Shown here: positions 27,763 to 37,554 of the stretch, in pieces | Position numbering within the stretch: position 1 is the stretch's first letter | Layout: every line of letters begins with the position of its first letter | Source of the DNA: an uncultured Paracoccaceae bacterium | GTDB taxonomy: Bacteria; Pseudomonadota; Alphaproteobacteria; Rhodobacterales; Rhodobacteraceae | Length of the DNA stretch: 64,000 nt | Reading direction: 5' to 3' | Assembly: GCA_938002605.1 (NCBI GenBank) | Contig: CALLAF010000004.1 | Location: forward strand, 124,001 to 188,000 | Position numbers and translations under genes: made by a program | The notes under the pieces: model-generated | The model's input: only the letters and a program-made list of their open reading frames with translations | What the model was told of the DNA's origin: nothing | The model's database searches: none

Positions 27763-29949
27763 ATGGCGAAGGCGCAAGAGACAGAAACCGTGGACGAAAA
27801 AGACAGCTTTGTGGACGAGCTAAAGCCGGGCACAAAGCTGATGCACGGCCAATACACGATTGAAAGCTTCCTTAACGCGGGTGGCTTTGGGATCACGTAT
27901 CTCGCAAAGGACAGTCTTGATCGTAAGATCGTGATTAAAGAATGTTTCCCTGGCGCGTTCTGCCGTCGGAGTCGTTATGTTGTGCAGGCCCGTTCGCGCG
28001 CCCACCAAAACGAATTGAAATCCATCGTTCGCCTTTTTGTACAAGAGGCCCGCAGCCTTGCGAAACTGGACCACCCGAATATCGTTGGCGTGCACCAAGT
28101 CTTTGAAGACAACGACACCGCCTATATGGCGCTTGATTTCGTTGAAGGCCGCGACCTGCTGGACACGATCGAAGATCCCAATCACTCTCTGACCCCCGCG
28201 CAGATCAAGACAATCTTAAATGAAGTGTTGAGCGCGGTCGGCTTTATCCACGAGCAAGGCATCTTGCACCGTGATATTTCGCCGGATAATATTCTGATCA
28301 ACCAGACGTTCCACCCCGTCTTGATCGACTTTGGTGCGGCGCGCGAAGAAGCGACAAAGCAAAGCCGCGTTTTGTCTGCATTGCGCGTGGTCAAAGACGG
28401 CTATTCGCCACAAGAGTTTTATATCGCAGGTTCAGAGCAAAGCCCAAGCAGTGACCTTTATGCTTTGGCCGCGTCATTCTATCACCTGATCAACAAAGAT
28501 GTCCCACCAAATAGCCAAGCGCGGCTAGCCGCGATCGCTTCTGGTGACACTGATCCATATGTCAAATTGGCGGGCCGCTTTCCCGACTACGAAGACCGCT
28601 TCCTTGAAGCGCTGGACAAAGCATTGGCTGTTTTGCCAAAAGACCGCATTCAATCTGCTGAAGAATGGCTGCAGATCATCGAGGGTAAGCAAGGCAATGT
28701 AACGCCACTTAATGCTTCCTCCGCTGCGGCGGCGGCACCCGTAACCGAAACTGCGCCTGCTGAAAAATCCAAGCTGCCTATTTTGCTCGGCTCGGCGGCT
28801 GTTGTCGCGATCCTTGCCGGGGTTGGCGTTATGACAATGACGGGCGGTGATGACGCCCCCGTCGCAGAGCAGGGAACAGCAGCAACAACACCAGAGCCTG
28901 CCGCAGAAGAGGTCGCCATAGTGACCCCCGAGGTCGAAGTCGCGCCGGAAGTGGAAGCCGCACCTGAAGTCGAAACGCCCGCACCTGCGCCTGAAATTGT
29001 GGATGCGACCCCAGATGTCACGCCTCCGGCTACTCAGCCCGCGCCTGTCGTTGTCGAAGACGAACCCGCAGTTGTGGCGCCTGTTATCGTCGATGGCCCA
29101 GTTATCGTTGATGCACCAACTCTGCGTCCGGCAGTGCGCCCAGAAAGCGTTGAAACTGCCGCGCAGCCAGAGCCGCTTCCTGAGCCAGTTGCAACACCGC
29201 AGCCAACGGTGACAGACCCTGAAGCCAGCACAGAATTCGCAGGACAAACAGGCACGCGCCCTGTCGGCGAAAGCGAGATCGCTGATGTCGCACTGCCAGA
29301 CACACCAGAAGCAATTGACGCTGTTGGTGCCGGTTTGGATGGCGCAATTGACGCTGTTGTTCCTGGCAACGAATTGCAGCCAAGTTATGTGAGTTCTGAC
29401 TGGACCGTCGGCCTGCCGTTTGGCGCTGCTGATGATACATCAAACGTTGTGTCCCAAGTTGGTCTTATTTCTCCTCTCTGGGTCGAACCAGGCTTAGAAA
29501 TCACCAGCGTTAACGGCGTTGAAGTCGATTCCATCGCTGGCATTCCAGCCGCGTTGCGCGCTTCGATGGAAGGCCAAGAGGTTCCCGGCACGATCAGTGC
29601 GACCTTTGGAACAATCAATGCCGATGGGGTCGCCGCGGAACATGATTGGAACCTACCCGTATCGCAAGAACTGGTCTTGTCAAACGGGGTAAGCTTTAAG
29701 TCTGTCTTCGCCGACGACGCGTGGCGCACGACTGTCGCAGAGATACCAACCAACCTTGCGGGCGGCCTGCAAGCTGGCGACGTTGTGGTCTCTTATATCC
29801 CAACTGCTGAGACCCTTACTGAACGTGAAACACTCACAAATATCTTTAACCGAGAGCTAGAAAGCGATGTCGAACAATTCATGTTTGCCGTCCAACGCGA
29901 TGGCAGCATGTGGGTTGCCTCGCTTGTCTATACTGGCCCTGAAAACTAA
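27763..29949 (+). CDS. Transmembrane Ser/Thr protein kinase with Pro/Ala/Glu-rich spacer and PDZ-like C-terminal region
   Basis: Gly loop LNAGGFGITYLAKD, catalytic loop ILHRDISPDNIL, DFGAAR; TM ILLGSAAVVAILAGVGVMTM; C-terminal WVEPGLEITSVNGVEVDSIAGIPAALR PDZ-like. Confidence 0.9.
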   Translation: MAKAQETETVDEKDSFVDELKPGTKLMHGQYTIESFLNAGGFGITYLAKDSLDRKIVIKECFPGAFCRRSRYVVQARSRAHQNELKSIVRLFVQEARSLAKLDHPNIVGVHQVFEDNDTAYMALDFVEGRDLLDTIEDPNHSLTPAQIKTILNEVLSAVGFIHEQGILHRDISPDNILINQTFHPVLIDFGAAREEATKQSRVLSALRVVKDGYSPQEFYIAGSEQSPSSDLYALAASFYHLINKDVPPNSQARLAAIASGDTDPYVKLAGRFPDYEDRFLEALDKALAVLPKDRIQSAEEWLQIIEGKQGNVTPLNASSAAAAAPVTETAPAEKSKLPILLGSAAVVAILAGVGVMTMTGGDDAPVAEQGTAATTPEPAAEEVAIVTPEVEVAPEVEAAPEVETPAPAPEIVDATPDVTPPATQPAPVVVEDEPAVVAPVIVDGPVIVDAPTLRPAVRPESVETAAQPEPLPEPVATPQPTVTDPEASTEFAGQTGTRPVGESEIADVALPDTPEAIDAVGAGLDGAIDAVVPGNELQPSYVSSDWTVGLPFGAADDTSNVVSQVGLISPLWVEPGLEITSVNGVEVDSIAGIPAALRASMEGQEVPGTISATFGTINADGVAAEHDWNLPVSQELVLSNGVSFKSVFADDAWRTTVAEIPTNLAGGLQAGDVVVSYIPTAETLTERETLTNIFNRELESDVEQFMFAVQRDGSMWVASLVYTGPEN

Positions 29950-29967
29950 TATTGGAAGGTAGATGAA

Positions 29968-30777
29968 ATGAAATTTCTTCGTAATCTCATTGGCAAGAAA
30001 CGGCGCGATGACACCTCCCGTCGCCCCGCTGGCGCTGATCCGCTTGAGCAATCGTACCAAGACACCGTTGGATCCATCGGCGCAGAGGAAGCCGCTGAAC
30101 CAGCGGTGACAGATATCCTATCTTCGGTGAATACCAAGGTTGCAGCGCCGAAAGCCGAAGCTACAAATATCTGGGATGTTGAAGACGATAGCACGTCAAG
30201 CGCACTCCCCGAAACGGCCCCTGATTTGCCTACACCTGCGCCAGCCGAAGCATCCGCCGCCGCGTCGCGCTCACCAGCGCGCGCCCGCCGGACCAAAACG
30301 CGCTTGATTGGCTTCGAAAAATCAGACGGTGATGTAGTCGGCATTTTTGATGACGCGCCAACACCTGACGCGCCAAAGGCAGCCCCAGCGCTACGCGCGA
30401 AATTCCCAGTAGGTTGGGTTGTAATCGCTTCCGGCCCAGGTCGCGGCGAGTGTTTTTCACTTTCCGCTGGCATGTCCCAAATTGGGCGTGGCGAAGACCA
30501 AGCCGTGCAACTTGATTTCGGCGATAACTCTATTTCGCGTAGCAACCATGCTGCTATCGTATTTGATGAAGAAACCAGCGAGTTCGTTCTTGGACACGGT
30601 GGGAAGTCAAATATCGTTCGTCTGAACGACAAACCACTTATTAGTAACGAAACACTTACGTCGGGCGATGTTATTCGCTTGGGTGAGACTGTGCTTCGCT
30701 TTGTTGGCCTGTGTGACAAGACATTCAACTGGACCGACGGCGCATCTGGGGAGGATGAAGATGTGGCGATCGCCTGA
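29968..30777 (+). CDS. FHA domain protein with low-complexity N-terminus
   Basis: IGRGEDQAVQLDFGDNSISRSNHAAIVFDEE...NIVRLNDKPLISNETLTSGDVIRLGETVLRFV. Confidence 0.88.
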   Translation: MKFLRNLIGKKRRDDTSRRPAGADPLEQSYQDTVGSIGAEEAAEPAVTDILSSVNTKVAAPKAEATNIWDVEDDSTSSALPETAPDLPTPAPAEASAAASRSPARARRTKTRLIGFEKSDGDVVGIFDDAPTPDAPKAAPALRAKFPVGWVVIASGPGRGECFSLSAGMSQIGRGEDQAVQLDFGDNSISRSNHAAIVFDEETSEFVLGHGGKSNIVRLNDKPLISNETLTSGDVIRLGETVLRFVGLCDKTFNWTDGASGEDEDVAIA

Positions 30778-31849
30778 ACCACGCTTTGACGTCGCATCTG
30801 CGATTGTCCAAGGCGGCCGTGATTACCAAGAAGACGCAATTGTGAGTGACTTCCCATTCGGGGCGGACACTGGCGTTGTTGTTCTTGCTGATGGTATGGG
30901 CGGCCACGCTGCTGGTGACGTCGCCAGTAAAATCGTAGTGACCGAAGTTTATAGTGAGCTTAAGTTTCAAAGCGCAAATTTCACCGATTTCGAAAGTGAA
31001 ATCCCGCAATATTTGACCTCTGCCGCAGTAAACGCAAACAATGTTGTGCGCGATCACGTGAAAGCGAACCCAGACACTCGCGGTATGGGTGCGACGCTCG
31101 TGTCTTTGGTTCTGATCGAAAACCGGATGTTCTGGATGTCGATCGGGGACTCGCCACTTTATCACATGCGTGCGGGCAAGATGAAGCAGTTGAACGAAGA
31201 CCATTCGATGGCGCCACAGATTGATTTCATGGTGCAATCGGGTCTTTTGGATGCGGAAGCTGGCAAAAACCACCCGGATCGCAACTGCTTGACCTCGGTC
31301 ATCCTTGGCGACCGTGTCGCAAAGTCTGACTGCCCTAAGAAGCCGTTCGAACTGCAGGTTGGGGATATTGTTGTCGTCTCAAGCGATGGGCTCCAGTATC
31401 TAGAAGAGCCGCATATTCAGAAGATTTTGCACCGCTATCGCCGCCGTAAAAGCGCCGAGATCGCTGGCTATCTTTTGGAAGCTATCGAAAATCTGGCTGA
31501 TCCTGATCAGGACAATGTGTCATTTGCGGTTATCAAGCTGAACCACAACAAACCGGTCATCCGCGCGATCCGTGCGAAACCAGTTGGTCACATTGAAACC
31601 CACGCGTCCTCTATTACCCGCGTTGTTACCGAAGCGCCAAAGGCAGATCCGGAAAATGCGGAACCTCCAGCAGAGGATGTCGCGGCTGAGACCACAGCGG
31701 ACGCTGCGCCAGTAGAGGCACCGACAGAGCCTAAAGACGCGAAACCCGTCATCAAAGAGGTAAAGCCAATCGCTAAACTTGATGATACTAGCACACAGGA
31801 GGTTGAAGAGGCTGCGCCTCAGGCTAAACTAGCCGCCGGAGGCAAATAA
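30761..31849 (+). CDS. PP2C-family Ser/Thr phosphatase with low-complexity C-terminal tail
   Basis: GGRDYQEDAIVSDFPFGADTGVVVLADGMGGHAAGDVAS...RGMGATLVSLVL...ISIGDSPLYHMRAG-type PP2C motifs; ATG at 30761 overlaps the FHA gene end. Confidence 0.9.
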   Translation: MWRSPEPRFDVASAIVQGGRDYQEDAIVSDFPFGADTGVVVLADGMGGHAAGDVASKIVVTEVYSELKFQSANFTDFESEIPQYLTSAAVNANNVVRDHVKANPDTRGMGATLVSLVLIENRMFWMSIGDSPLYHMRAGKMKQLNEDHSMAPQIDFMVQSGLLDAEAGKNHPDRNCLTSVILGDRVAKSDCPKKPFELQVGDIVVVSSDGLQYLEEPHIQKILHRYRRRKSAEIAGYLLEAIENLADPDQDNVSFAVIKLNHNKPVIRAIRAKPVGHIETHASSITRVVTEAPKADPENAEPPAEDVAAETTADAAPVEAPTEPKDAKPVIKEVKPIAKLDDTSTQEVEEAAPQAKLAAGGK

Positions 31850-33180
31850 TGTCGAATCAATCTCTCGCGATACGCGTACACGAAGAATTAAAGCAGGCCG
31901 TCGCAAGCGGCCTGCTACCTGAAGCCGCCCATAAGCGCGCAATGCAGCTTGCTGGCCGCCTTGACCAACCCGTGCGAATCGCGCTTTTGGGTATGGAAGG
32001 CGCTGGAAAGTCGCGGATACTCAACCTGCTGGTGGGCAGCAAGGTCATTCCCGAAAGCGTCAATTTGCCCACCGTTCAGCTGACGCATGGCGACACGACC
32101 CAAGCGATTTGCACCTTGGATGACGGCACCAAAAAGACGCTCGACCATTTTGGTGAAAAGACGACGTTTGAAACGGTCGATATTCTAAAAATTATCGCCG
32201 TGAAGCCAACCTTTGTTGAGCTACGCATCCCACTGCCCGCGCTCAAGAAGATTTCGGTTCTAGATGTCGCTTCAACCAATGAACCAGAAGCGCTCAGTGC
32301 CGCCTGTCAGTGGGCTGCTAAGCGTTGTGAAGTCGCCATGTGGTGCACAAAGGGCTATGTGCCCGCAGAGCAGGCGATCTGGGCGCAAATGCCTGATTTG
32401 ATCAAAGACCACGCATTTTTGATGCTCACCCATGCGGATCAAATTGCCGCAGCTGGCAAGTTGGATATTGCAATCGCTGCCGTGCGCAAAGCCGCTGGCG
32501 ATGAATTTAACCACGTGCTGCCCATTGCTACGCTTGATGCGCTTGCCTCGCGCGGGGCCGATGGGGCTGTCGACAAAGAAAAAATGCGCAGTAGCGGCGG
32601 AACGGCGCTTATTGGTGCGGTACTTAAGCAGGTCGACCAAGGGCGCCAGGCTTTCGTCGATCTAGGCGACATTTTGTTGCACCAAAACGCCGAGGCGCTC
32701 GCAGGGAATGAAAAAGTCGTTCTAAGTCAAGAGGATGAAGACGGTGCACCAACAGATTTGGGCACAAATCACACTGTTGAGCTCTCAGTCGTACATAGCG
32801 CAACTGTTTCCTCAGGGGAAACAAAAGAATCGGCCACTGTTGTAAGACTTCAGCCAGAAACGCGTAGCGCCTATGAAACTGCGTTAACCTATATCGCTGA
32901 ACAAAGCCAAGCGATATCTCAGGTCATGGCAAATGCAGACGATGGCACGCCCGCCGAAATCATCGCGCGCGCTTCTGAGAACGTGCAGTGGATTTGCGAT
33001 TATCTGAATGAAAATGGTAACGATTCTGACCAATCACTCCTACGTGCACGGGATACGGCGTTTGATGCCGCAGACCTTGTGCAACTCATGCAGATGGAAA
33101 AAAATGACGGTGCCGCAGTCGAAGCGCTAAGCCTATTGTTGCAAATCAAGCACGAGTTACAGGCCGATTTAGCCGCATAA
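31849..33180 (+). CDS. Dynamin-like P-loop GTPase (paralog A, degenerate G3)
   Basis: G1 GMEGAGKS, G3 position DVAS (not DxxG), G4-like THAD; TAATG coupling to the PP2C gene. Confidence 0.75.
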   Translation: MSNQSLAIRVHEELKQAVASGLLPEAAHKRAMQLAGRLDQPVRIALLGMEGAGKSRILNLLVGSKVIPESVNLPTVQLTHGDTTQAICTLDDGTKKTLDHFGEKTTFETVDILKIIAVKPTFVELRIPLPALKKISVLDVASTNEPEALSAACQWAAKRCEVAMWCTKGYVPAEQAIWAQMPDLIKDHAFLMLTHADQIAAAGKLDIAIAAVRKAAGDEFNHVLPIATLDALASRGADGAVDKEKMRSSGGTALIGAVLKQVDQGRQAFVDLGDILLHQNAEALAGNEKVVLSQEDEDGAPTDLGTNHTVELSVVHSATVSSGETKESATVVRLQPETRSAYETALTYIAEQSQAISQVMANADDGTPAEIIARASENVQWICDYLNENGNDSDQSLLRARDTAFDAADLVQLMQMEKNDGAAVEALSLLLQIKHELQADLAA

Positions 33181-33341
33181 CGCCGCGCAACACTTGTCAA
33201 AGCGTTAATATCAGTGCCTTATTCAGGCTGCGCTACTCTGTTTCCATTATCGCAATAAACCAGTGATAACCTCGTGATTTGGCGAAGAGGATATCTACTG
33301 ATATGGGTGGTAGCCAAGACGACTATTGAGGACAAACGAGA

Positions 33342-35426
33342 ATGAAGATGGAAGAGCTGACAAAAGGGGATGGTTACAAAGTCCCGGCAGCGCACCACCC
33401 TTTCATGCGACTTGGGCTAGAAAAACTCGAAGAGTTTCATGACGAAATTGTTGACCTAGAGGCGACGCTGGCAGACGTCGTCAAACTGGGCGGACCTGAC
33501 GCTGAGAAAAAATCAACGCGTCTTATCAAACAGTTGCGCGCTTTTGAGCCTAGCATCACGATGATCGGGCAGATCAAATCCGGCAAAACATCGCTGGTGA
33601 ACGCCATGGTTGGCCGCCCCAATTTGCTGCCCGCTGACGTGAACCCGTGGACATCCGTTGTCACCTCTTTGCACCTAAATACGCCGCTCGCCAACGATGC
33701 GCCAACCGCGTCATTCCAGTTCTTTAGCCAGGGCGAATGGGACCATTTGGTCGAAAATGGGGGCCGAATCGGTGAGCTATCAAGCCGCGCCGGCGCAGAT
33801 GAAGAACTTGAAAAAGTGCGCGAACAAATCACCGAGATGCGCGATAAGACCAAAGCCCGCCTTGGACGGAAATTCGAATTGCTGCTTGGTCAGAAGCACA
33901 GCTATGCCGATCTGACCGATGATCTAGTCCAGCGCTACGTCTGCATGGGCGACGATTTCGAAGATATGGACGAAGAAGACCAGCAAGGCCGGTTCGCGGA
34001 CATCACGAAATCAGCGGATCTGTATCTTGAGGCGAAATCAATTCCGATGCCGCTGTGTGTCCGCGACACCCCCGGCGTGAACGATACATTTATGATGCGT
34101 GAACAAATCACCATCAACGCGCTGCGTGAAAGCCGGATTTGTGTTGTCGTACTGTCTGCGCATCAGGCGCTCAGCTCGATGGACATGGGGCTTATCCGCC
34201 TTATCGCAAACGTGAAGTCCCGCGAAGTGATCATTTTCGTGAACCGGATTGACGAATTGTCTAATCCCGCCGATCAGGTACCCGAAATTCGCGACAGCAT
34301 TTTGCAAACGCTCAAAGACAATAATGGCCCCGAAAATCCAGAGCTTATTTTTGGCAGTGCTTATTGGGCGAACATTGCTTTGGGCGAAACGCTTGATGAC
34401 ATCGTCGCCGAAAGCGCCGAAGCCATGTTCAACTGGGCCGAGGCTTCGCTGAGCGCGGAAACCGCTGGCATGGAGATCAACGAACTGGTTTGGCACCTGT
34501 CGGGTGTGCCCCAGTTATATCGCGCCCTGTCTGACCGTATTACCGAAGGGCCCGGTGCCGAAATTCTGGCCGCCTCGCGCAAACGGGCATTGAACCTTGT
34601 TGGCGGCGTGCGCGCCTCCTCGGCGATGGTTTCGATGCGCCTTGATGGCGACTCCTTTGATGTCATGCCGCATGATCAGCTCGTCGCGCATTTGGACAAG
34701 CTTGAAGCAGACAATCAAAAATTTCTCAGCGACCGGATGGACATTGTATTCCAGCAATTCTCATCCCGCATCGACCAGTCACACAAACGGTTCTTGGACC
34801 GCGCACTTGAATCGCTGCTTCAGCACCTTGAAAGCAAGGGCGAGCAAGAGGTTTGGCAATATAGCCCTGACGGGTTGCGGATGCTTTTGCGCACCAGCTA
34901 TCAAGTTATGCGCCGCAATGTGTCATCCACCTGCGATCAGGTTTTTGCAGCCGCCTCCGCTGATTTGGCTGAAACGTACCGTAATGCCTTTGGTGTTGCG
35001 GTAGATAACTTTTCGATCACGCCGCCAGCCGCGCCTGAAATTCCGGCCCCTGTGCAGCTAGGCCAGACCATCGCGCTGGATCTGCAGACGTCTTGGTGGA
35101 AAGGCTGGTGGAGCCGTCGTAAAGGGTATCGCGCCTTTGCCAGCGGATTTTATGACCTGATCGAAGCCGAAACAGCCCCGATTGTTGATGAACTCAAAGT
35201 CCGTCAAGCCGAAGAAATCCGTGATTTGGTAGAGGCCGAGTTACGAGATTTTCTTGCGGAACAACGTGGCTTCCTCACGGATATCAGCGAGAAATCGAAC
35301 CTGAACCAAGAAGACCTTAAAGAAATCTTTGGTATTACGGCGCAGCAAGAACGCGAAGAAATCTTCGATTACATTTTCGAAGAGTTGAGCGATAGCACCG
35401 CTGCAGTCGAAGGGGACGCGGAATGA
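33342..35426 (+). CDS. Dynamin family GTPase (large)
   Basis: G1 GQIKSGKTS, G3 DTPGVND, G4 NRID; long helical C-terminus with WWKGWWSRRKGYRAF segment. Confidence 0.85.
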   Translation: MKMEELTKGDGYKVPAAHHPFMRLGLEKLEEFHDEIVDLEATLADVVKLGGPDAEKKSTRLIKQLRAFEPSITMIGQIKSGKTSLVNAMVGRPNLLPADVNPWTSVVTSLHLNTPLANDAPTASFQFFSQGEWDHLVENGGRIGELSSRAGADEELEKVREQITEMRDKTKARLGRKFELLLGQKHSYADLTDDLVQRYVCMGDDFEDMDEEDQQGRFADITKSADLYLEAKSIPMPLCVRDTPGVNDTFMMREQITINALRESRICVVVLSAHQALSSMDMGLIRLIANVKSREVIIFVNRIDELSNPADQVPEIRDSILQTLKDNNGPENPELIFGSAYWANIALGETLDDIVAESAEAMFNWAEASLSAETAGMEINELVWHLSGVPQLYRALSDRITEGPGAEILAASRKRALNLVGGVRASSAMVSMRLDGDSFDVMPHDQLVAHLDKLEADNQKFLSDRMDIVFQQFSSRIDQSHKRFLDRALESLLQHLESKGEQEVWQYSPDGLRMLLRTSYQVMRRNVSSTCDQVFAAASADLAETYRNAFGVAVDNFSITPPAAPEIPAPVQLGQTIALDLQTSWWKGWWSRRKGYRAFASGFYDLIEAETAPIVDELKVRQAEEIRDLVEAELRDFLAEQRGFLTDISEKSNLNQEDLKEIFGITAQQEREEIFDYIFEELSDSTAAVEGDAE

Positions 35427-36286
35427 CTGATCAAGCAAAACGCAAACCACGCATTGCCCTGATGGGCGAATTTTCGGCAGGCAAAAGCACCCTGTCGAAC
35501 CTGTTGATGGGAGCGCGCCCCCTACCCGAAAAGGTAACGGCAACCCGGCTATCGCCAGTTTGGATGACCTATGGCGATGGCGCACCCTACCGTGTTGATG
35601 TGGATGGCAGCACTGAACCCGTGTCGCTTGATCATCTTGAAGGGATTCCCGTCGAGGAGACCAGATGCATTCGGCTGGAACTGGAATGTGATATTCTAGA
35701 GGCCTGTGATTTGATCGACTTTCCTGGCATTTCCGATCCGAACATGTCGTCTGACGTTTGGGAACGCATGTTGCCCGAGGTGGACGCTGTCATTTGGCTC
35801 ACGCATGCCACCCAGGCATGGCGGCAATCCGAAGCCTCTGTTTGGGACGCGATGCCCGAAGCGGTGCGCAAAAATTCTATCCTGCTGATTACGCGCTTTG
35901 ACAAATTGACGACAGAAAAAGACCGGCTGCGCGTGTTTAAGCGTGTGCGCCGCGAAACTGCGGGTCAATTTGCCGCAACATTCCCAATCTCGCTGCTGCA
36001 GGCGCTTGAAGCCGGTGAGAACTTTGATCTTTGGGATGCCAGCGGCGCCGGTCCATTTGTAGAGCATCTGATCCAAACGATCGATACACTCAGCAAGCTT
36101 GCCGCCCGCTCTGAACAGCCGCTTTATAACATTCCTGATGGAACGGCGGTTCCGGAACCAAAGGTTGCAGCAGTGATACCGCGCCGCGTTGATCGCCCGT
36201 TGAACAAGGATGCGCCCAAACGTGAACGCCCCAAGGCTCCGCCCGCAGGGGCTGGCCCGGCAGTACCGGGCGCTGCAACTTCTTAA
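35423..36286 (+). CDS. Dynamin-like GTPase (paralog B, short)
   Basis: G1 GEFSAGKST, G3 DFPGISD, G4 TRFD; ATGA overlap with the upstream GTPase gene. Confidence 0.82.
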   Translation: MTDQAKRKPRIALMGEFSAGKSTLSNLLMGARPLPEKVTATRLSPVWMTYGDGAPYRVDVDGSTEPVSLDHLEGIPVEETRCIRLELECDILEACDLIDFPGISDPNMSSDVWERMLPEVDAVIWLTHATQAWRQSEASVWDAMPEAVRKNSILLITRFDKLTTEKDRLRVFKRVRRETAGQFAATFPISLLQALEAGENFDLWDASGAGPFVEHLIQTIDTLSKLAARSEQPLYNIPDGTAVPEPKVAAVIPRRVDRPLNKDAPKRERPKAPPAGAGPAVPGAATS

Positions 36287-36375
36287 TAGGTTACCGTGTT
36301 TAGGATAGGCTTTCACACGGCGTGCATATGTCGTAGTCAGCTTGATAGAAACATAAATTCAACGGACCAGCATTC

Positions 36376-36738
36376 ATGGTTGTCGACGATCTAGACGCTC
36401 TGCAGGAAAAATTCGCGGTCTGTGACACAATCGCCTTTGCCGATTTGTCGACTCAGATGATCCTTGTGACAAATTCAGCAACGTCATTGCCGCGCGAAGG
36501 GTTAGACAACCTTTGCGCAGAAGCCGCCCTGACGATGGGGACTAAGCGGCGACAGTTTTTGGGAACAGAACCCAGTTCTAGCGCCGTTGTCGCAAGTCGC
36601 GGACAAGTCCGCCTGTTCTTGCGCGCCAAAGCTGAACCCAATGATATCTTGTGTTGTGTCAGCACCGACGAGCTGGATATCAACGCATTTTTAGCAGAAG
36701 CCCAGCCGCTTCTTGAAAAGCTGAGCACTGGCGGATGA
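36376..36738 (+). CDS. Small uncharacterised protein (roadblock/LC7-like fold suspected)
   Basis: MVVDDLDALQEKFAVCDTIAFADLSTQMILVTNSATSLPREGLDNLCAEAALTMG; position in kinase/GTPase cluster. Confidence 0.55.
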   Translation: MVVDDLDALQEKFAVCDTIAFADLSTQMILVTNSATSLPREGLDNLCAEAALTMGTKRRQFLGTEPSSSAVVASRGQVRLFLRAKAEPNDILCCVSTDELDINAFLAEAQPLLEKLSTGG

Positions 36739-36774
36739 TTATGCAAAACCTACTAACGAACAAAGGCTGCAACC

Positions 36775-37554
36775 GTGAGTGACACATCGACAATCACCAA
36801 CAAGTTGGCCGCGCTTTTATCCGACGATGATATCTATGTGGCAGGTGCCCGTGTCATCGCGCAAGGTGGTTCCCCTGCGCCTTTGGCCGCTGTCCTGAAC
36901 GAAATTGACGCGACCGTTTTGGAACGCACATTGGTGTTCAGCATCGATGATGTGAACGTCAGTATGATCGTTGCCGGCCGTCGTTTGCGTGGGTTTACAG
37001 ATGTTTCGGGAAATCTCCCTGAGGCGGCGAACGTCATCGGCAAAGTATTGTCTCGCGATGATTCAGAACCACTGCAGGCAGCAGGCGATCTGATGCTATT
37101 GCTTTGCGCCTCTGCTAACCGCGTGACGGTACGCAGCCTGCCAGCAACCCCATTTGGGACGAGTGCAGACGCAGGATTATCCGCCAGCGGGCTTGCGACC
37201 CTATGGCACATCAATCTTGACGACAAACCCGCCGCATTCATTGAACGGTACCTGTCTGCAAACGCTGCAGATTTAAGCGCATATATTTATGTATCAAATG
37301 GAGACGTGGTAAAGACCGTCGGCGATGTCGCCACGCTTGACGCACTCTGGAGCACGCAGGTCACCGAATTTCGCAAGCGCCACCGCGCCCTTCTTCCCAA
37401 ACAAGATGGCCCCCGTCTGACCTGCCTTGATGAACCCATGGGTGAAGGCAGCACAGTGGCAATCGCTATCGACGGCAACGATGTTGGCCTATTCAGCTAC
37501 AAACGCAGTCAAATGCCACGGCTTGTGTCGACTTGGGCTGCATCTCTGGGTTGA
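36775..37554 (+). CDS. Uncharacterised protein, last gene of kinase/GTPase cluster
   Basis: 259 aa ORF, co-directional, 36 bp after previous gene; no family recognised. Confidence 0.6.
   Translation: MSDTSTITNKLAALLSDDDIYVAGARVIAQGGSPAPLAAVLNEIDATVLERTLVFSIDDVNVSMIVAGRRLRGFTDVSGNLPEAANVIGKVLSRDDSEPLQAAGDLMLLLCASANRVTVRSLPATPFGTSADAGLSASGLATLWHINLDDKPAAFIERYLSANAADLSAYIYVSNGDVVKTVGDVATLDALWSTQVTEFRKRHRALLPKQDGPRLTCLDEPMGEGSTVAIAIDGNDVGLFSYKRSQMPRLVSTWAASLG

Follow-up and report, generated by a model that had tools for sequence, protein, structure and literature searches.

A conserved gene cluster of Rhodobacteraceae combining a Ser/Thr kinase, FHA and PP2C set with dynamin-type GTPases and predicted roadblock-type proteins

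Background

The occurrence of a Ser/Thr protein kinase next to genes for dynamin-type GTPases raises the question whether the two belong to one unit and, if so, what such a unit might regulate. Such an arrangement is encoded in a 64-kb stretch of DNA (the window, to which all positions refer) from a genome of the family Rhodobacteraceae that is 3.0 Mb in size, in 64 contigs and 95.6% complete, and whose close named relatives are Yoonia. The cluster spans positions 27763-37554 and comprises eight partly overlapping open reading frames (ORFs) for a kinase (KIN), an FHA protein, a PP2C phosphatase, three GTPase-type proteins (A, B and C) and two small proteins (S7 and S8). The original prediction, made from the sequence alone, had described eight consecutive co-directional genes that would link a kinase/FHA/PP2C set to dynamin-like GTPases in a candidate system. 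In public records each of these genes carries a label of its own, such as dynamin family, kinase, FHA, PP2C or hypothetical protein. To our knowledge, the control of bacterial dynamins is largely unknown.

Results and discussion

Conservation of the module

The eight genes form a real conserved unit that is inherited together. Loci were grouped at 75% identity of GTPase B, resulting in 51 clusters, and the DNA of the loci was annotated with profiles of the eight proteins. The full order kinase-FHA-PP2C-A-B-C-S7-S8 has been identified in 27 of the 51 clusters (four of these with an extra or split piece), which bears out the proposed module, and most of the other clusters are cut, partial or rearranged versions. 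S7 and GTPase B also occur together, since every one of the 65 S7-positive genomes among 298 encodes GTPase B (hypergeometric 5e-53, relatedness of the genomes being ignored). The ratio of non-synonymous to synonymous substitutions (dN/dS) against Yoonia relatives lies between 0.02 and 0.13 for most of the genes, a rough estimate given how close the synonymous sites are to saturation; for two values saturation of these sites made the calculation impossible, and S8 is the fastest evolving gene (0.43 against the locus L119).

GTPase B is encoded in 30 of the 37 Yoonia genomes, including every genome larger than 3.0 Mb (in one of them, G017, in a broken form). The seven negative genomes are assemblies of 2.7-3.0 Mb in 20-190 contigs and are 83-95% complete, so that loss and incompleteness are indistinguishable in them. 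The upstream neighbours, namely a GAPDH-like gene, ABC-2 type transporter genes and an S49-like peptidase, are alike in 23-28 named loci, mostly of Yoonia, which points to vertical inheritance there. Sampling of 297 genera of the family showed GTPase B in 77 of them, about a quarter, and the module is found also on plasmids. No strong match to GTPase B has been obtained beyond the family in the class and phylum samples, and the same is true of S7.

A patchy distribution among genera and plasmid-borne copies are features that would suit an anti-phage defence system, in which infection would be sensed by the kinase and answered by the dynamins through sealing or killing of the membrane, in the manner of Bacillus DynA. 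Both dynamins and kinases are known from defence, DynA, which delays lysis, being an example (PMC8844932), and a search with PADLOC gives a kinase match and weak, partial matches to LeoA and LeoBC (E 5e-7 and weaker). These matches, however, reflect general kinase and G-domain similarity, PADLOC recognises nothing among the flanking genes beyond a generic ABC ATPase, and no match to the module is present in 50,697 phage records. The core position in Yoonia with its housekeeping neighbours likewise speaks against defence. The role in phage defence that had been suggested earlier thus finds little support, and we consider it improbable, as neither PADLOC nor the phage records nor the flanking genes offer convincing evidence for it.

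Organisation of the locus

All the eight ORFs are present on one strand as originally described, and the proposed couplings between them can be read directly in the sequence (Table 1). The PP2C gene starts at ATG 30755 or at ATG 30761, both inside the FHA gene, whose stop codon occupies 30775-30777; the candidate start at 30761 has the sequence GGGGAGG six bases upstream. The PP2C and GTPase A genes meet in TAATG (31847-31851) and those of GTPases B and C in ATGA (35423-35426), and the remaining intergenic gaps are, in gene order, 18, 161, 89 and 36 nt. A scan for promoters and terminators was left unused, as promoter-like sites occur at about the shuffle expectation and terminator-like sites are scattered within genes.

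Table 1. Genes of the cluster and the basis of their assignment
Gene	Position	Strand	Length (aa)	Description	Basis
KIN	27763..29949	+	728	Ser/Thr protein kinase	Pkinase 2.8e-32 (Pfam)
FHA	29968..30777	+	269	phosphopeptide-reader domain protein	FHA 3.2e-7 (Pfam)
PP2C	30755..31849	+		Ser/Thr phosphatase	PP2C_2 4.7e-10 (Pfam)
GTPase A	31849..33180	+		dynamin-type G domain with broken G3 (pseudo-GTPase) and conserved C-terminal region	Dynamin_N 0.0011 (Pfam, below cut-off)
GTPase B	33342..35426	+	694	full-length dynamin-like protein	Dynamin_N 2.8e-12 (Pfam)
GTPase C	35423..36286	+	287	trunk-less dynamin-type GTPase	Dynamin_N 1.9e-11 (Pfam)
S7	36376..36738	+	120	predicted roadblock/LC7 fold	AlphaFold2 model and Foldseek
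S8	36775..37554	+	259	GTG start; predicted roadblock-like half	AlphaFold2 model and Foldseek

Kinase, FHA and PP2C components

The kinase of the window consists of a cytoplasmic kinase domain, one transmembrane segment (residues 338-356), a Pro/Ala-rich linker and a C-terminal region that is presumably periplasmic. Similarity of the C-terminal part to PDZ_6 is recurrent and always below the cut-off, and a PDZ domain is not claimed here. The Gly-loop, Lys59, Asp171, Asn176 and Asp189 are conserved in 85 of 86 aligned kinase rows, the remaining row being gapped. The FHA protein retains Arg174, Ser190 and His194 in all the 96 aligned rows and Asn215 in 95 of them. The phosphatase matches the Stp1-type model with an E-value of 2e-42, yet below the cut-off of that model, and its metal-binding Asp residues are kept in every covering row among 99 aligned sequences. 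Judged from these alignments, the catalytic, metal-binding and phosphopeptide-binding residues of the three proteins are intact and near-invariant.

The same three protein types constitute the PpkA/Fha/PppA regulator of the type VI secretion system (T6SS), and T6SS is encoded in some of the Yoonia genomes, which would fit a T6SS regulator that has been parted from its structural genes. The absence of T6SS structural genes noted earlier for the window extends to the genome, in which no VipB/TssC is found. Eighteen of the 30 GTPase B-positive Yoonia genomes also have no VipB; in the other 12 it is never adjacent to the module, being placed on other contigs or at least about 120 kb away on the same contig. 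The kinase has no match to vWA in Pfam either. With VipB missing from the own genome and T6SS unlinked in the relatives, this explanation has been rejected and stands close to refuted.

GTPases B and C

The G1-G4 motifs of GTPase B are intact and are found in all the 34 aligned rows. The profile of this protein gives Cj-DLP1 (1e-14) and Nostoc BDLP1 (9e-12) as its best PDB matches, the best-scoring stretches of the dynamin matches lying on the G domain and its start. GTPase B and its first-pair relatives share, in the motif alignment, a conserved stretch of aromatic and basic residues, SWWKGWWSRRKGYRAF, at about residues 585-600, with the pattern SWWKxWWxRRxGY near residue 590. We take this segment to lie at about the position of the paddle of BDLP1, and its WWxxWW motif is a candidate membrane tip. 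GTPase B is broken in two genomes, by a stop in G332 (L088:8891-10960) and into pieces in different frames in G017 (G017:C2:2139867-2141928), owing either to decay or to sequencing error.

GTPase C has a G domain at about residues 8-225, with G1-G4 intact and the motifs present in 24 of 24 rows, followed by a poorly conserved tail. Its profile matches Cj-DLP2 (2.6e-15) over residues 10-225 of 287, and the end of the match at residue 225 indicates that the protein is without a trunk. The description of the three proteins as dynamin-like GTPases needs correction, since in size only GTPase B corresponds to a full dynamin, C being trunk-less and A a pseudo-GTPase.

GTPase A as a pseudo-GTPase

GTPase A, whose Dynamin_N match is below the cut-off, retains the P-loop and G4. 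Its G3 motif is broken and reads VLDVAS in the window, so that the DxxG of an active GTPase is missing. In 20 of the 21 aligned rows Glu stands where G3 should have Asp, and only the window has kept the Asp. The Gly is gone from every A protein encoded in the main arrangement with a kinase, the window included. A tree of the small GTPases places A, with support 0.96, together with the second small GTPase from loci that have two GTPase pairs and no kinase (L091, L106 and L107), and these relatives keep DxPG. The simplest reading is that A would descend from an active partner that was disabled in the lineage carrying the kinase set. The retention of DxPG in the kinase-free relatives and the loss of Gly in A fit the idea that A has become a regulatory subunit.

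Small proteins S7 and S8 and the kinase-free loci

Searches of Pfam, NCBIfam and PDB profiles have given no useful match for S7 or S8, and fold comparison alone was informative. None of the 31 members of S7 has a roadblock match in Pfam at E 10, and a search of PDB sequences with S7 has given no match. The AlphaFold2 model of S7 (predicted template modelling score, pTM, 0.75) has the order of elements a-b-b-a-b-b-b-a, and its 50 best PDB matches in Foldseek are all of roadblock fold, with TM-scores of about 0.6-0.77. They include MglB, Ragulator/LAMTOR subunits and archaeal (Asgard) and Streptomyces roadblock proteins. S7 is thus predicted to have the roadblock/LC7 fold, and is a member by fold only and not of a Pfam sequence family. 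The model of S8 (pTM 0.74) shows a-b-b-a-b-b-b-a in its C-terminal half, and roadblock proteins make up most of its best PDB matches (E 2e-3, probability 1.00, about 80-118 residues); these matches are weaker than those of S7 and include a few unrelated long chains. On this model one half of S8 has a roadblock-like topology. The view of S7 and S8 as small unknown proteins is thus revised as regards fold. Comparison of the two profiles reveals no similarity, so that a common origin is not supported by sequence.

Several kinase-free loci encode a different, highly conserved protein of 118-119 residues adjoining the same kind of B-C pair. This protein appears MglB/roadblock-like by eye, and searches of Pfam and PDB profiles have given no match for it. 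As read by eye, its position beside the B-C pair is counted in favour of the mechanism proposed below. It is encoded at L102:8068-8427, L103:12657-13013, L104:13342-13716, L109:12086-12439 and L110:3933-4382; it is also found at L085:4480-4836, in a locus that holds both the kinase set and this protein. A further variant is L107:6568-12597, where a single run of genes encodes S7 and S8, an ATPase of ABC/AAA type and a divergent pair of a large and a small GTPase.

Genomic surroundings

In other groups the module is flanked by other genes. In the Litoreibacter/Jannaschia group (L072:13607-17757 and 12-15 related loci), PBP_like_2-OmpA and PilJ-domain proteins are encoded after S8, and in Ruegeria two genes for substrate-binding proteins follow PP2C. 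At six loci (L078, L080, L081, L084, L087 and L088) the module adjoins mreB-, mreC- and mrdA-like genes, MreB being confirmed by Pfam in L080 and the remaining names assigned by eye; mreD- and rodA-like genes are present at most of them too. In a Tabrizicola-like clade (L083, L178, L180, L185, L186 and L188), motB-like and flagellar hook-like genes are located just downstream (by eye). Leisingera and a relative (L166-L168, L170 and L171) have the module in two divergent or convergent halves on opposite strands, B-C-S7-S8 and kinase-FHA-PP2C-A.

The proximity of mreB-type genes and of motB- and hook-like genes, together with the predicted fold of S7, which resembles MglB and Ragulator proteins, could indicate a polarity, cell-shape or motility module of MglAB type, where the roadblock proteins and GTPases would determine where the cell grows, divides or assembles its flagellum and would not themselves remodel the membrane. 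Such neighbours are, however, specific to clades, no Ras-like MglA is encoded in the cluster, and the GTPases match Dynamin_N best. GTPase B is moreover of full dynamin length and has a conserved tip-like segment. We regard this interpretation as possible, though unlikely.

Proposed mechanism

We propose that a phosphorylation switch gates a membrane-remodelling dynamin through the pseudo-GTPase and the roadblock proteins, for maintenance of the envelope; to us the proposal as a whole is about evenly poised. The kinase, which in Yoonia would sit in the inner membrane and extend into the periplasm, would phosphorylate a component of the module, and PP2C would reset the phosphorylation. The FHA protein may bind the phosphorylated form and thereby recruit or release the GTPase machinery. 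GTPase A and the roadblock proteins could act as a scaffold or as GTPase regulators that steer the GTP cycle of B and C, for which the regulation of MglA by MglB serves as a model. Released GTPase B would then self-assemble and bind the cytoplasmic membrane through its WWxxWW tip, so that the membrane is tethered, sealed or reshaped. The module would probably serve to maintain or remodel the envelope while cells grow or are under stress. The Campylobacter pair of dynamin-like proteins (DLPs) is known to tether membranes and has been speculated to repair them (PMC6104087), DynA (PMC8844932) is a further dynamin precedent, and the envelope-type neighbours of some clades (PBP_like_2-OmpA, PilJ, mreB-type and substrate-binding proteins) count in favour of such a role.

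A second proposal, put forward more tentatively, is that a membrane-remodelling dynamin, gated by a dedicated Ser/Thr phosphorylation cycle by way of a pseudo-GTPase and roadblock proteins, would be a bacterial analogue of regulated dynamin and Rag-Ragulator logic, which may have evolved from kinase-free roadblock-dynamin modules by addition of the kinase set and disabling of one GTPase.

Starting from the observed composition and conservation, we infer regulation by phosphorylation, membrane action and role, and several points weigh against the mechanism. Phosphorylation of a GTPase, binding of FHA to a GTPase and binding of S7 and S8 to the GTPases are steps that are presumed. GTPase B has no transmembrane segment, and a lipid-binding tip is a guess. 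The kinase had been described as a transmembrane protein, which is valid for the window and Yoonia; in several other clades it has 434-451 residues and no transmembrane segment, and in the Tabrizicola-like clade the locus encodes FHA and PP2C but no kinase. The input of the module is thus not fixed. The rearranged kinase-bearing locus L098 retains D..G at G3 of its A protein, and the loss of G3 therefore tracks the kinase imperfectly. The neighbouring genes vary from clade to clade and could be there by coincidence, and about three quarters of the sampled genera of Rhodobacteraceae are without the module. The role in the envelope, which rests on the precedent of dynamins and on envelope-type neighbours that recur but vary with the clade, is the weakest step.

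Comparison with known systems

No paper describing this combination of genes, and none pairing the roadblock fold with dynamin-type GTPases, has been found in the open-access library that was searched. In the module a fold familiar from proteins that regulate Ras/Rag-type GTPases would be linked with GTPases of dynamin type. The presence of a kinase, a reader, an eraser, a pseudo-GTPase, roadblock-type proteins and a dynamin in one cluster makes the control of a dynamin by phosphorylation directly testable, and the hosts are abundant marine bacteria with culturable members.

Adjacent GTPase genes are a feature shared with the bacterial DLPs and their pairs, such as Cj-DLP1/Cj-DLP2 (PMC6104087), Nostoc BDLP1 and Streptomyces DynA/DynB, and the profile of GTPase B matches Cj-DLP1 and BDLP1 while that of C matches Cj-DLP2. 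A heterotypic pair has two full-length DLPs side by side; in the module, in contrast, the partner C, of 287 residues, has a G domain and no trunk, and a pseudo-GTPase, two roadblock-type proteins and the kinase, FHA and PP2C are added.

The threonine phosphorylation pathway of the T6SS, PpkA-Fha1-PppA, likewise brings together genes for a transmembrane kinase of Ser/Thr type, a reader with an FHA domain and a PP2C eraser. The module differs in that the genome has no T6SS genes, the other five genes encode GTPases or roadblock-type proteins, and the kinase is soluble or missing in some clades.

A protein of roadblock/LC7 fold encoded with GTPases is known from MglA-MglB, Ragulator and the actinobacterial conservons (Cvn), the last of which also include a kinase-like sensor (PMC13343842). 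Unlike these systems, the module has dynamin-type and not Ras-like GTPases, its kinase is a Ser/Thr kinase and not histidine-kinase-like, and FHA and PP2C are present.

Eleos (LeoA/LeoBC) and Bacillus DynA resemble the module in their dynamin-type G domains, with weak similarity. A full-length match to LeoA and LeoBC, which characterises Eleos, is replaced here by the partial matches described above; the companion genes are others and the context is not one of defence.

GTPase B is a member of the bacterial dynamin superfamily, and the set as a whole lacks features that define a T6SS regulator, MglAB, Eleos or a pair of full-length DLPs. Within the open-access library searched no known system matches the module and its composition is new; on a stricter view it could be regarded as a variant of bacterial dynamin modules.

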